Shown piece after piece: positions 34,538 to 38,163 of a stretch of DNA of 38,282 nt (position 1 is its first letter; the number at the start of each line of letters is the position of its first letter). Source of the DNA: Candidatus Brocadia sp. WS118 (GTDB lineage: Bacteria; Planctomycetota; Brocadiia; Brocadiales; Brocadiaceae); contig PHFX01000016.1 in the NCBI GenBank assembly GCA_007618135.1, forward strand, positions 1-38,282, read 5' to 3'. The notes beneath the pieces are model-generated. The model made no database searches and was not told the DNA's origin. It saw nothing but the letters and a program-made list of their open reading frames with translations. A program made the position numbers and the translations under genes.

Positions 34538-34610
34538 ACACACCCCCGGCCCCTCTTTTTAGAGGGGAGAACAGAAGTCCCCTCTAAAAAGAGGGGATTT
34601 AGGGGTGTGT
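34538..34610. repeat. Complete ACACACCCC palindromic element upstream of the type IIG gene
   Basis: Arms ACACACCCCCGGCCCCTC (34538-34555) and GAGGGGATTTAGGGGTGTGT (34591-34610) enclose an inner palindrome (CCTCTTTTTAGAGGGG and CCCCTCTAAAAAGAGGGG). The left arm is the exact inverse of the right arm of the element inside the downstream gene (36472-36489). Confidence 0.85.
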
Positions 34611-34670
34611 TTCTCATAGTATGTACCTTGTCCATCGATGATGGTTAAAGCCTTTTTCATTTAAAGCGCT

Positions 34671-37600
34671 ATGATTGTTTCTCCTGAAATGCTTGGGCTG
34701 ATCGAACGATTCGACACCAATCGCGAGGCGTATCGTTCCGGGACATACAATGAAACCCAGCTCCGTCGTGAATTTATCGATCCATTCTTTAAAATTCTGG
34801 GCTGGGATGTTGACAATGAGAAGGGCTATGCCGAGGCGTATAAAGACGTCATCCACGAGGATTCCGTAAAGGTTGGCGGTATGACGAAGGCCCCGGACTA
34901 CTGCTTCCGCATCGGAGGCGTCCGCAAATTCTTCGTGGAAACAAAGAAGCCCTCCGTCAACCTTAAAGATGATGCCGACCCTGCATTTCAACTGCGCCGC
35001 TACGCATGGTCTGCCAAGCTCCCGCTCAGTATTCTCACCGACTTCGAGGAGTTCGTCGTTTACGATTGCAGGATAAAACCCGATAAGTCAGACAAGTCTT
35101 CCACAGCCCGTATCCTCTATCTCAACCACACCGAGTATGCACAGCGCTGGGATGAGATCGCCTCCATCTTCTCACGTGAAGCGGTACTCAAAGGCGCCTT
35201 TGATAAATACGCCGAATCGGGCAAGGGCAAAAAAGGCACCGCATCGGTTGATGATGCCTTTCTGCATGAGATCGAATCCTGGCGCGACACGCTTGCCCGC
35301 AACCTGGCGTTACGGAATCCTGATTTGACCCAGCACGACACGAACTTTGCCGTCCAGCGTATCATCGACCGTATTATCTTCCTGCGTATCTGTGAGGATC
35401 GCGGCATCGAAAAATACGGTCGCCTCATGGCCTTGCAGAACGGTGACCGCGTGTACGCACGCCTCTGCGAAATGTTCCATCGCGCTGATGAACGCTACAA
35501 CTCCGGCTTGTTTCACTTCCAAAAGGAAAAGGGCCGTGCTGAATCGCCAGACACCCTCACCCTAGGCTTGACCATTGACGACAGTGCGCTCAAGGATATC
35601 ATCAAAAACCTGTACTATCCCGACAGCCCCTATGAATTCTCCGTCCTTTCGGCTGACATCCTGGGTCAGGTCTACGAGCAATTCCTGGGCAAGATAATCC
35701 GCCTAACGGCTGGCCATCGTGCTGTGGTAGAGGACAAGCCTGAGGTCAAGAAGGCAGGCGGGGTTTACTACACACCGACGTATATTGTTGACTACATCGT
35801 AAAGAATACCGTTGGTCGCCTGGTTACCCCCCCTTATTCCCCCCGTAAACGTGGGGAAAATATTTCCCTCCCCGTTTACGGGGAGGGCCAGGGTGGGGTT
35901 GCTGCTCACCTTCCCGGGAAAACACGAGGGGGTGATAAACTCTTGTGCAACATTACCCCCAAACAGGTATCCAAACTGAGAATCCTCGACCCTGCCTGCG
36001 GCTCAGGCTCCTTTCTCCTGGGCGCCTATGAATACCTGCTTGACTGGCACCGCGACTGGTACGTGACCAATGGCCCTGAGAAATGGTCAACGGGACGCTC
36101 ACCGGCATTATACCAATCTGGAAAATCCGAAATCCGAAGTCCAAAATCCGAAACAGATAGTTGGCGACTAACCACCGCAGAACGTAAGCGCATCCTGCTC
36201 AACAACATCTACGGTGTGGACATCGACCCGCAGGCCGTGGAGGTAACTAAGCTGTCACTGCTTTTGAAGGTGCTGGAAGGCGAGTCAGAGCAGACGATTG
36301 TAAGACAGCTCAAACTCTTCCACGAACGCGCCCTGCCCGATCTTGGCAATAACATCAAGTGTGGCAACTCACTCATCGGCACGGATTTTTATAACACACC
36401 CTTAACCCCTCCCGTATCGGAGTACGGGACAAGCCTTTTTAGAGAGGAAAAGGCGGACTCCCCTCTAGCAAGAGGGGCCGGGGGTGTGTCAGACGAGGAA
36501 CGATACCGCATCAATCCATTCGACTGGGACAAAGAATTCCCGGAGACCATGCAAGCAGGCGGGTTTGACGTAGTGATCGGAAACCCGCCGTATGTAAGAC
36601 AAGAAGGCTTAGGCGACCTGAAAGAATATCTCCAACGTAAATACACGGTATATCATGGGATGGCAGACCTCTATGCGTATTTTATTGAGAAAGGTGTTTC
36701 GCTGCTCAGGGATAAAGGGCGTTTCGGCTACATCGTTGCAAACAAGTGGATGCGGGCGAATTATGGTGAGCCGCTCAGAAAGTGGTTAAAGCAACAAGGT
36801 ATTGCGCAAATTGTTGATTTTGGGGACCTGCCGGTATTCCAGCAAGCCACAACGTATCCCTGCATCCTCGTCATCGGAAAAGACACATCTCCATCTGCCA
36901 CTCCTGATGGTTCAGCCTTGCAGCCTGAACCAGGTATTTTGATTCAATCGAAGAGGACTGCACCATTAAGATCGGCAAAGAAGCCTATTACCACGCTTTT
37001 CGTGACTCAGGTAAAGACACTTGAATTTGAAAGCCTGGAAGTCTATGTAAAAGGAAACCGCCATGCTGTAAAACTTGCCACCCTTGATGACACGGGCTGG
37101 TCGCTTGCAGACGAACGAAGCGCTGCGCTGCTCAACAAGCTGAAAAAGGCCGGAATTCCTTTGAAAGAATATGTGAAGGGTAAAATCTATCGAGGTGTTT
37201 TAACAGGGCTCAATGAGGCATTTGTAATCGATGCAGAAACAAGGAATCGGCTCATTTCTGAAGACCCTAAAAGCAAAGAGATTATAAAGCCATTCCTGAT
37301 AGGGCGAGACGTTAAACGTTATCAGCCGCCAACGTGCAAGCAATTTTTGATTTTTACCAGACGTGGATTCGATATCCAAAAATATCCTGCCATAGAAAAG
37401 TATTTAAGCCAGTATAAAGAACTGCTTATGCCAAAACCGAAGGACTGGAAGGGTAGTAATTGGAAAGGAAGAAAACCTGGATCCTACAAATGGTATGAAA
37501 TTCAAGATGCAGTTGACTACTATGCTGAGTTTGAAAAACCAAAGATAATTATTCCAACTATTGTGCAAAACGCCTCATATACCTTAGATATTTCAGGTTT

Positions 37601-37994
37601 TTATTCGAATGACAAAACATCTATTATTGGTACAGAAGATTTATACTTGCTTGGAATATTGAATTCAAGAGTGGCCGACTTCGTCATGCATTCGATTTCC
37701 TCTACCAAACAGGGTGGTTATTTTGAATATAAACCCATGTATTTTTCACAAATTCCCATTCATACAATTGACTCATCCAACCCATCGGATAAATCGTGCC
37801 ACTATAGCATGGTTGCTCTTATCAGACAGATGCTCGAACTGCACAAGCAATTATTATCGGCAAAGACGGATCATGACAAGACCGTCATCCGGCGTCAAAT
37901 TGACGCCACCGACCGCCAGATTGACCGGTTGGTGTACGAATTGTACGGATTAACGGAGGAGGAAATTAAAATTGTTGAGGAAGGAACAACATGA
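34671..37994 (+). CDS. Type IIG restriction-modification enzyme (fused nuclease and N6-adenine methyltransferase)
   Basis: One polypeptide of 1107 residues would both cleave and methylate DNA. An N-terminal nuclease domain shows a PD...ExK core: Pro75-Asp76 and Glu90-x-Lys92 (FFVETKKPS). A helical linker precedes the methyltransferase: SAM-binding motif I DPACGSGSF at 440-448 and catalytic motif IV NPPY at 638-641 (gamma-type order, adenine N6). A C-terminal TaqI-like specificity domain covers about 800-1050. Four stretches look like in-frame repeat insertions (about 386-410, 484-495, 575-607, 746-754), all outside catalytic motifs. The frame is intact throughout. The start ATG 34671 has no clear ribosome-binding site. 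No separate restriction or methylase gene is visible beside it. Confidence 0.9.
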   Translation: MIVSPEMLGLIERFDTNREAYRSGTYNETQLRREFIDPFFKILGWDVDNEKGYAEAYKDVIHEDSVKVGGMTKAPDYCFRIGGVRKFFVETKKPSVNLKDDADPAFQLRRYAWSAKLPLSILTDFEEFVVYDCRIKPDKSDKSSTARILYLNHTEYAQRWDEIASIFSREAVLKGAFDKYAESGKGKKGTASVDDAFLHEIESWRDTLARNLALRNPDLTQHDTNFAVQRIIDRIIFLRICEDRGIEKYGRLMALQNGDRVYARLCEMFHRADERYNSGLFHFQKEKGRAESPDTLTLGLTIDDSALKDIIKNLYYPDSPYEFSVLSADILGQVYEQFLGKIIRLTAGHRAVVEDKPEVKKAGGVYYTPTYIVDYIVKNTVGRLVTPPYSPRKRGENISLPVYGEGQGGVAAHLPGKTRGGDKLLCNITPKQVSKLRILDPACGSGSFLLGAYEYLLDWHRDWYVTNGPEKWSTGRSPALYQSGKSEIRSPKSETDSWRLTTAERKRILLNNIYGVDIDPQAVEVTKLSLLLKVLEGESEQTIVRQLKLFHERALPDLGNNIKCGNSLIGTDFYNTPLTPPVSEYGTSLFREEKADSPLARGAGGVSDEERYRINPFDWDKEFPETMQAGGFDVVIGNPPYVRQEGLGDLKEYLQRKYTVYHGMADLYAYFIEKGVSLLRDKGRFGYIVANKWMRANYGEPLRKWLKQQGIAQIVDFGDLPVFQQATTYPCILVIGKDTSPSATPDGSALQPEPGILIQSKRTAPLRSAKKPITTLFVTQVKTLEFESLEVYVKGNRHAVKLATLDDTGWSLADERSAALLNKLKKAGIPLKEYVKGKIYRGVLTGLNEAFVIDAETRNRLISEDPKSKEIIKPFLIGRDVKRYQPPTCKQFLIFTRRGFDIQKYPAIEKYLSQYKELLMPKPKDWKGSNWKGRKPGSYKWYEIQDAVDYYAEFEKPKIIIPTIVQNASYTLDISGFYSNDKTSIIGTEDLYLLGILNSRVADFVMHSISSTKQGGYFEYKPMYFSQIPIHTIDSSNPSDKSCHYSMVALIRQMLELHKQLLSAKTDHDKTVIRRQIDATDRQIDRLVYELYGLTEEEIKIVEEGTT
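35826..35900. repeat. In-frame palindromic insertion A inside the type IIG gene
   Basis: A 75-nt C/G-rich palindrome (core GTAAACG ... CGTTTAC; outer CCCCTTATT ... CCAGGGTGGGG) encodes a PPYSPRKRGENISLPVYGEG-like stretch. The stretch lies between the NTVGRLV segment and the residues leading into motif I. Its length is a multiple of three. It belongs to a CCCTGGCCCTCCCC-type repeat distinct from insertion C. Confidence 0.75.
36121..36155. repeat. In-frame heptamer repeat (CGAAATC)5 inside the type IIG gene
   Basis: Five consecutive 7-nt units (GAAAATC, CGAAATC, CGAAGTC, CAAAATC, CGAAACA) encode GKSEIRSPKSET. They lie in the loop between the YQ of GRSPALYQ and the conserved WRLTTAERKRILLNNIYGVD block. 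Similar heptamer words occur outside the four-helix-bundle element (near 31670) and upstream of uvrA. Confidence 0.7.
36394..36489. repeat. In-frame palindromic insertion C inside the type IIG gene
   Basis: This 96-nt (32-codon) element has arms ACACACCCTTAACCCCTC (36394-36411) and GAGGGGCCGGGGGTGTGT (36472-36489), 16 of 18 complementary. The right arm is the exact inverse of the left arm of the intergenic element at 34538-34555. It adds a Pro/Gly/Ala-rich loop (TPLTPPVSEYG ... LARGAGGV) between the conserved GNSLIGTDFY and RINPFDWDKEFP segments. Confidence 0.85.
36907..36932. repeat. Short palindrome D inside the type IIG gene
   Basis: TGGTTCAG and CTGAACCA enclose CCTTGCAGC. It matches the hairpin just downstream of the gene (38006-38028, GGTTCA...TTGCAGC...TGAACC) at 19 of 23 positions. 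It encodes DGSALQPEPG within a Ser/Pro-rich segment (about 735-770) that looks like added sequence. Confidence 0.6.
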
Positions 37995-38028: not shown

Positions 38029-38136
38029 AGAGCTTTAATATACCCACTGGTTTAAATTCCTTAGCGTTGTTAGCTGACAAACTATGGGGTTCTGGTCATA
38101 TACCTGAACTCGCGAATTAATGGAACATCGTGTTTT

Positions 38137-38163
38137 CTCCTCTAAAAAGAGGGGATTAAGGGG
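38137..38163. repeat. Half copy of the ACACACCCC palindrome family
   Basis: A CTCCTCTAAAAAGAGGGGATT-like stretch followed by AAGGGG matches the inner and right part of the element at 34538-34610. The outer GTGTGT end is missing. Confidence 0.6.

Follow-up and report, generated by a model that had tools for sequence, protein, structure and literature searches.

The 96-nt palindromic element found in frame in a restriction-modification gene is most probably (we put this at about 0.78) a copy of a dispersed palindrome that resides, nearly neutrally, in an unstructured loop of a predicted type IIG enzyme, and the loops of such enzymes would act as landing pads for REPs as well as for whole REP-RAYT-REP units that are read through. 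The preliminary description of this element is sound at its core, and an in-frame palindromic repeat is of a known kind. The whole case is built on sequence data, mostly MAGs; the window denotes the complete stretch of DNA analysed (38,282 nt).

The 96-nt element, its gene and its copies

The window is contig C228 of a genome (G000) of 5.04 Mb, assembled in 299 contigs and 96.3% complete. The gene concerned runs from 34671 to 37994 on the forward strand, and its nearest named relatives in the homologue search belong to Candidatus Brocadia, which are anammox planctomycetes. Its product of 1107 aa is a predicted type IIG restriction-modification enzyme: Pfam finds an endonuclease-like HSDR_N domain, an N6-adenine methyltransferase (Eco57I/N6_Mtase) and a specificity domain (TaqI_C) on a single chain, and PADLOC assigns it to REase_MTase_IIG (PDLC03604, E=7.7e-217). 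The orthologous frames are shifted near residue 990 in Ca. B. pituitae (L062) and near residue 600 in Ca. B. carolinensis (L081); judging from the sequence, the enzyme may be decaying in these relatives.

The element (insert S3, 36394..36489, forward strand) was characterised by genome repeat search, homologue alignment, AlphaFold2 and DNA folding. Its extent of 96 nt and its kept frame are correct as first described, and among the three forward frames the one used is the single one without a stop. The arms, said to match at 16/18 positions, do so if G-T wobble is counted, but strictly the figure is 14/18. Reverse-complemented, the right arm does match the initial 18 nt of an intergenic sister element upstream of the gene (34538..34611) without a mismatch; S3 and this sister are 94% complementary across 32 nt, and sequence comparison also reveals an intergenic half copy downstream of the gene (38131..38163). 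When folded as ssDNA, S3 reaches z = -3.83 (equalled by 0/200 shuffles) and the sister z = -8.59. By plain arm length the S3 hairpin scores weaker (p = 0.098 when compared with segments elsewhere in the gene), the cause being a 24-nt piece within it (36411..36434, forward strand). This piece holds an 18-nt palindrome, and none of the Brocadia-family orthologues aligned here that have the element possesses it. S3 starts with ACACACCC and ends with GGGTGTGT, and neither end of its hairpin bears the GTAG or CGTC tag of a REP.

A search of the own genome with a 103-nt query returned 33 places at E<=10, of which 18 besides S3 itself lie at E<1e-3 (the next best has E=0.01). Seventeen of these clear matches span 31-33 nt of the right half and one spans 54 nt. 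The idea that the 96-mer belongs to a genomic repeat family therefore holds for about a third of its length, repeated at 18 further places, while the full 96-mer is single-copy. Together with the fold against shuffles, the genome copies rule out a chance palindrome. The inner 18-mer was also considered as an abundant repeat of the own genome and rejected: it finds only itself at 0 mismatches, and at 3 mismatches it gains three matches where the reversed control pattern gains one. A copy was counted as genic if an open frame of at least 100 aa reached 60 nt beyond both of its ends, with 30 of the 33 places fetched as loci. 'Protein-invading', as the family had been called, suits the in-frame genic S3 but is too strong for the S3 family alone, as just one of its 19 clear copies, that of the window, is genic. 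Among the weak matches, one of 17 nt (E=0.13) falls in a 102-aa frame and one of 21 nt (E=0.45) overlaps two frames, 113 aa and 558 aa long; the longer may be a genuine gene that was matched by chance. No transposase, RAYT included, was tied to the ACACACCC family of the window in the present analysis. By eye, GTAG-type REPs can be seen inside the hairpin of the ACACACCC element at five loci (L021, L022, L025, L026 and L030), a palindrome within a palindrome.

Alignment against homologues (tblastn) bears out that S3 is an insertion, since most homologues show a short loop at its position. Brocadia sp. AMX1 and G016 have nothing inserted in this loop. Ca. B. pituitae, Brocadia sp. BIN37, G021, Ca. 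B. carolinensis and two Brocadiaceae contigs have the ACACACCC element there, lacking its 24-nt inner piece. The same loop is taken up by a second palindrome in Ca. B. sapporoensis and in MAG_8 (Brocadia sp.) and by a third type in G010; in a homologue from the same order (L188) two GTAG-like hairpins are found there.

Further insert loops in the enzyme and its homologues

Besides S3, which is confirmed, the gene has three more insert loops (S1, S2 and S5), absent from the first description and all on the forward strand. S1 (35826..35951, residues 386-427) belongs to a second palindrome family according to genome repeat search, alignment, AlphaFold2 and DNA folding. S2 (36117..36167) consists of short direct repeats without a hairpin and is common to Ca. 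B. pituitae. S5 (36891..36992, residues 741-774) is common to Ca. B. pituitae and Ca. B. carolinensis and contains a hairpin at 36908-36932 that is notable by arm length (p=0.024); a slightly cut S5 stretch folds no better than shuffles (z=-0.90, 38/200 as good).

The S1 family has at least 44 matches listed in the own genome at E<=1 (40 of 99 first-look candidates scored), two of them being the window copy; 30 loci were fetched, of which two are the window itself. Copies of the family lie within candidate frames of 113-147 aa in L040, L048 and L053. A further one is located within a 241-aa frame without a Pfam match (L032:1254-1976; G000:C114). Another contig of the genome encodes a type III-like DNA methyltransferase (L034/L205, at L205:1075-4911; G000:C58) with an intein-like insert at its DPTC/CGSGTT motif. 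This insert holds a DUF559 domain and an S1-family palindrome in frame, and its intein match (PF14890) scores 26.3 bits, below the Pfam cut-off of 35.8.

We aligned the window enzyme with 76 homologues having open frames of at least 600 aa (L114, L123, L126 and L127 were dropped from 80 loci for their short frames). Long inserts cluster at five loops, S1 (386-427), S2 (about 474-498), S3 (581-606), S4 (628-631) and S5 (741-774), and the window gene has inserts at all of these except S4. Elsewhere inserts are shorter or rarer, and a common one near 925-940 resembles ordinary protein. Counting inserts at least 8 aa above the median in the five loops, 26 of 65 have a hairpin at p<=0.05 relative to segments elsewhere in their gene (S1 9/20, S2 5/23, S3 8/11, S4 2/9, S5 2/2). 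A binomial test gives 2e-17, a value that serves as a guide only because the rows are related and the 65 inserts not independent. Ten archaeal S2 inserts were tried as repeats and rejected, as they form a conserved clade without hairpins.

Inserts of three homologues were searched in five genomes each, own-genome figures being distinct places. The insert of L095 (a deltaproteobacterium according to its record) has 6 further places in its own genome, that of L094 (Nitrospirae) 9 and that of L092 (Planctomycetota) 31. For the L095 type, 10 matches in the own genome compare with 53 in G003, 17 in G002 and one in a third other genome, and three of the four other genomes match the L094 type (5, 1 and 1 times); therefore these repeat families are partly common to genomes and not all independent. 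The L092 repeat found no match in the four other genomes searched. The L092 insert (at S2) is GTAG-like and the L094 insert (at S1) CGTC-like. Loop use goes beyond the tolerated 32-residue loop first proposed: loops of homologues in several phyla hold other palindromes, and all three of those searched are dispersed repeats of their own genomes. Mere variation in loop length is ruled out for S1, S3 and the L092 S2 insert, where dispersed repeats of the respective genomes fill the loops.

S1 is the single insert for which dN/dS was measured. Between the window and Ca. B. pituitae it amounts to 0.94 (a coarse value, from 42 codons), against 0.13 (codons 1-380) and 0.03 (codons 510-570) in the flanks. 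S1 is hence a near-neutral passenger in an enzyme under purifying selection, and the same would apply to S3. An AlphaFold2 model of the window enzyme (mean pLDDT 81.3, 36 sequences) falls below a pLDDT of 50 at residues 184-193, 389-425 (S1), 485-494 (S2), 581-605 (S3) and 740-769 (S5), where it should be noted that inserts present in few alignment rows tend toward low pLDDT regardless. The model agrees with the earlier suggestion that S3 forms a loop, predicted here to be disordered.

Whole RAYTs in frame in methyltransferases, AlaS and FabZ

In-frame, putatively mobile DNA has a wider scope than first described, as other methyltransferases of the same genome hold whole transposases in frame. 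A genome search for the Y1 transposase (PF01797) yielded 12 places, three of which lie inside frames of 1326-1367 aa. On the basis of Pfam and PADLOC the hosts are a type IIG enzyme (A; PDLC03596, E=0), PglX (B; PDLC02528, E=0) and an HmaB-like protein (C; PDLC00661, E=1.2e-108). PF01797 is found in all three fusions (22.6 bits against a cut-off of 23 in the HmaB-like one, which reached 27.1 bits in the genome search), and the aligned NHVH (HUH) motif and catalytic Tyr identify them as RAYT / TnpA_REP. With respect to subclass 2.4, NHVH is present in 3/3, next to WM, WQ and WQ and to YIEDNP, YIGNHG and YTVNNP. Each RAYT is flanked by REP-like hairpins that are also translated, without a stop in frame, and two of these flanking stretches fold at z -5.5 and -6.1. 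The REPs of C are of the GTAG type, with GTAGCGCAGGCTTCCAGCCTGC exact downstream of the RAYT (L204) and one base changed upstream; those of A begin with GTAA or GTAT and those of B with GTTG, which departs from a strict GTAG.

Plasmid-borne homologues of the three hosts lack the RAYT: that of B in Haliscomenobacter (65% identity over the residues aligned), that of A in Nostoc (36%) and that of C in Planktothrix (49%). The alignment gap at the RAYT is clean in B and ragged in A and C. In A, B and a type IIG enzyme of G020 (L257) the RAYT lies between the TP-motif helix and the DPxxGSG motif, which is the S1 interval of the window enzyme. This interval measures 327, 289 and 305 residues in A, B and L257, against 66 in the window, 26 in homologue L063, 54 in the PglX homologue without a RAYT and 64 in the likewise RAYT-free Nostoc protein (counted from a slightly earlier point). 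In a relative of A from G015 (matched to Ca. B. sapporoensis) the RAYT occupies another loop, one that holds a REP in A, and the S1-type loop is filled by a different insert.

With a profile built from the three own-genome RAYTs we obtained matches in 13 of 59 relatives (E<=1e-20) and in 55 of 392 Planctomycetota genomes (E<=1e-25), the own genome being counted in both. Open frames of at least 400 aa occur at no fewer than 24 of the 105 places listed in the larger search (own three included, up to 8 candidates per genome scored), an evenly sampled figure in which the hosts of some long frames are putative. According to Pfam the hosts comprise type IIG enzymes (L257, L259), an N6/N4 methylase (L268), a further Eco57I-type methylase (L270), AlaS (L269, L273), a FabA-like protein that is FabZ by eye (L286), an oxidoreductase with the RAYT between its FAD and FMN domains (L272) and a helicase with the RAYT upstream of the helicase domains (L275). 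Open frames of 1326-1534 aa with host domains on both sides occur among the RAYT fusions. Two RAYT matches were found on plasmids (30% and 38% identity), neither of them in an annotated methyltransferase.

The FabZ and AlaS fusions can be followed across the 16 genomes of another planctomycete family, f29. FabZ carries a RAYT in 10 of them (nine unbroken frames; that of G319 is interrupted by a run of N), and the site is RAYT-free in G194, G130, G277 and G312, with a short REP-like peptide left in G194; no FabZ orthologue was seen in G257 and G208. A FabA-like paralogue (39-48% over about 70 residues) is present in all 16, and therefore the FabZ fusions are no proof of function. AlaS is found at one place per genome in 16/16 at E<=1e-20 (on two contigs in G267). 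It contains a RAYT in an open frame in G130 and G110 and in a broken frame in G179 and G296, and is RAYT-free in 12, including G257, where a short REP-like peptide sits in the same loop. No second AlaS was detected at E<=1e-20 in G130 and G110 (genomes that are 88-90% complete, in which a further AlaS is possible).

A tree was made of 52 RAYT domains, an uneven sample with long frames picked by choice; for five of its seven 'other long' frames (L276, L277, L278, L279, L285) the host is putative. The simple HUH pattern is present in 52/52, and the tyrosine pattern fails in 3, one of which is cut by a contig end. The three AlaS RAYTs are separate, strong branches forcing three label changes among them, and those of FabZ require at least 2 label changes. 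Such scatter would result from repeated arrival at the same loop or from RAYT exchange between hosts. The dN/dS of the RAYT domain within its host is 0.21 for the HmaB-like protein (own genome against G049) and 0.12 and 0.09 for two FabZ pairs, whose dS values of 2.1 and 2.3 are near saturation.

Origin of the inserts and relation to known systems

A copy of a dispersed palindromic repeat came to sit in an unstructured loop of the type IIG enzyme, where a length divisible by three and a frame free of stops allowed it to stay. The loops would act as landing pads which REP-type palindromes enter repeatedly, the recurrence being observed and targeting presumed. A resident REP might then provide a hairpin at which more REPs, or a complete REP-RAYT-REP unit, could enter. 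The RAYT of such a unit (an HUH/Y1 tyrosine transposase) would be read as a domain of the host protein, having no stop of its own and translatable REP ends; we call these 'translation-transparent elements'. What the accessible portions of PMC6006769 report on TnpA_REP suggests that RAYT activity could move them via ssDNA hairpins. It is reasonably probable that translation-transparent REPtrons of this kind exist, i.e. REP-RAYT-REP units that are open frame throughout, in surface loops of DNA methyltransferases, AlaS and FabZ and translated together with these hosts, where REP-seeded loops are the landing pads and both host and transposase are under selection. A common site, the in-frame logic and the GTAG-type REPs in the ACACACCC hairpin would join the window repeat to the RAYT fusions, and one mechanism may underlie both.

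Other explanations for the inserts in the window gene should be considered. The loops could be functional, with inserted peptides kept by selection for stability, partner binding or DNA specificity, as might be argued from the refilling of the same loops across several phyla and from the S3 element staying in frame in several Brocadia-family genomes. Against this stand the dN/dS of S1 (0.94 versus 0.03-0.13 in the flanks), peptides that differ within a loop, the many homologues that are empty and the pLDDT below 50 at the inserts, which together make selection for function improbable. Alternatively, the gene may have been transferred horizontally with the inserts already in place, so that the loops reflect donor genomes. 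A Nitrospinae MAG contig points in this direction: the inner 18-mer recurs there in a similar context (L079:5375-5392), about 3.3 kb from a related gene, 75% identical, whose S3 element is nearly the same as that of Ca. B. sapporoensis. Given that half of S3 has 18 other copies in the genome of the window and that the 24-nt inner piece is missing from the aligned sister orthologues, such a transfer is rather doubtful.

For the RAYT-host frames it might be objected that they are decaying genes or read-through artefacts, in which the RAYT uses an internal start and the host protein is dead. The broken AlaS frames of G179 and G296 fit this objection, as does the HmaB-like frame of G049, which stops after the RAYT; the long open frames with host domains on either side, the purifying selection on both host and RAYT in the measured pairs and the lack of another AlaS at E<=1e-20 in G130 and G110 speak against it, and we regard it as unlikely. 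Post-translational excision of the RAYT inserts in the manner of inteins is very improbable: another methyltransferase of the genome (L205) does have an intein-like insert, but PF14890 is absent from the RAYT fusions scanned with Pfam, in the same scan that reported it in L205.

The insertion of a dispersed palindrome in a loop, as we propose for the window, has partial precedents. The portions of PMC3733652 available describe Rickettsia palindromic elements as small palindromic repeats in frame within genes whose proteins are likely functional, and REPs within genes of several species, many of them for DNA replication/synthesis and repair, with loops suggested as tolerant places. Set against these descriptions, S3 is palindromic, in part repeated and in frame in a gene, while 1/19 clear copies are genic; it differs from the Rickettsia elements in phylum and in starting with ACACACCC instead of the CGTC tag (PMC3733652). 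The L092 S2 (GTAG) and L094 S1 (CGTC) inserts look like the REPs of that paper; unlike the REPs as described in its available portions, homologues here re-use loops of a restriction enzyme and whole RAYTs occur in frame. In the accessible portions of PMC6006769, the RAYT gene is flanked by REPs and has HUH and Tyr motifs, subclass 2.4 is defined by NH[IFV]H, WQ and YIxNNP and has in-frame REP insertions in its own RAYT gene, and REPtrons appear not to move as a unit. The own-genome RAYTs share the position between REPs and the HUH and Tyr motifs with these REPtrons, the difference from that account being that host proteins contain the whole REP-RAYT-REP unit in frame. Like inteins, the RAYT inserts are presumably mobile coding sequence in frame in conserved proteins, methyltransferases included; unlike inteins, they showed no splicing domain in the fusions scanned and lie in variable loops.

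In-frame REPs are thus already known. In the literature searched, mainly open-access and in part accessible as portions of text, we found no report of a methyltransferase, AlaS or FabZ with a REP or RAYT in frame, nor of in-frame whole RAYTs in general; a search for a transposase in AlaS of Planctomycetes gave nothing, and the accessible text of PMC2817692 has no mention of in-frame, fusion/fused, intragenic or planctomycete. The observations bear on three questions, namely how palindromes spread into genes, whether RAYT and REPs move as a unit, and by what route conserved proteins gain new domains. If a RAYT can persist in the sole alanyl-tRNA synthetase of a cell, a mobile element would be expressed from an essential gene at little cost to the host, which would in turn penalise any loss of the frame. 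Long RAYT proteins dismissed as annotation errors may then be real.

Two minor observations concern RAYT genes in other settings. In one candidate (L278:2143-4056) the RAYT is N-terminal and the frame runs on into a stretch that, by eye, resembles a MoeA-type protein. Two further RAYT genes of the window's genome, L207 (G000:C278) and L212 (G000:C256), also have restriction genes as neighbours, HsdS of a type I system directly adjacent and the C-terminal part of a type IIG gene nearby; RAYTs accompany restriction genes in this genome.
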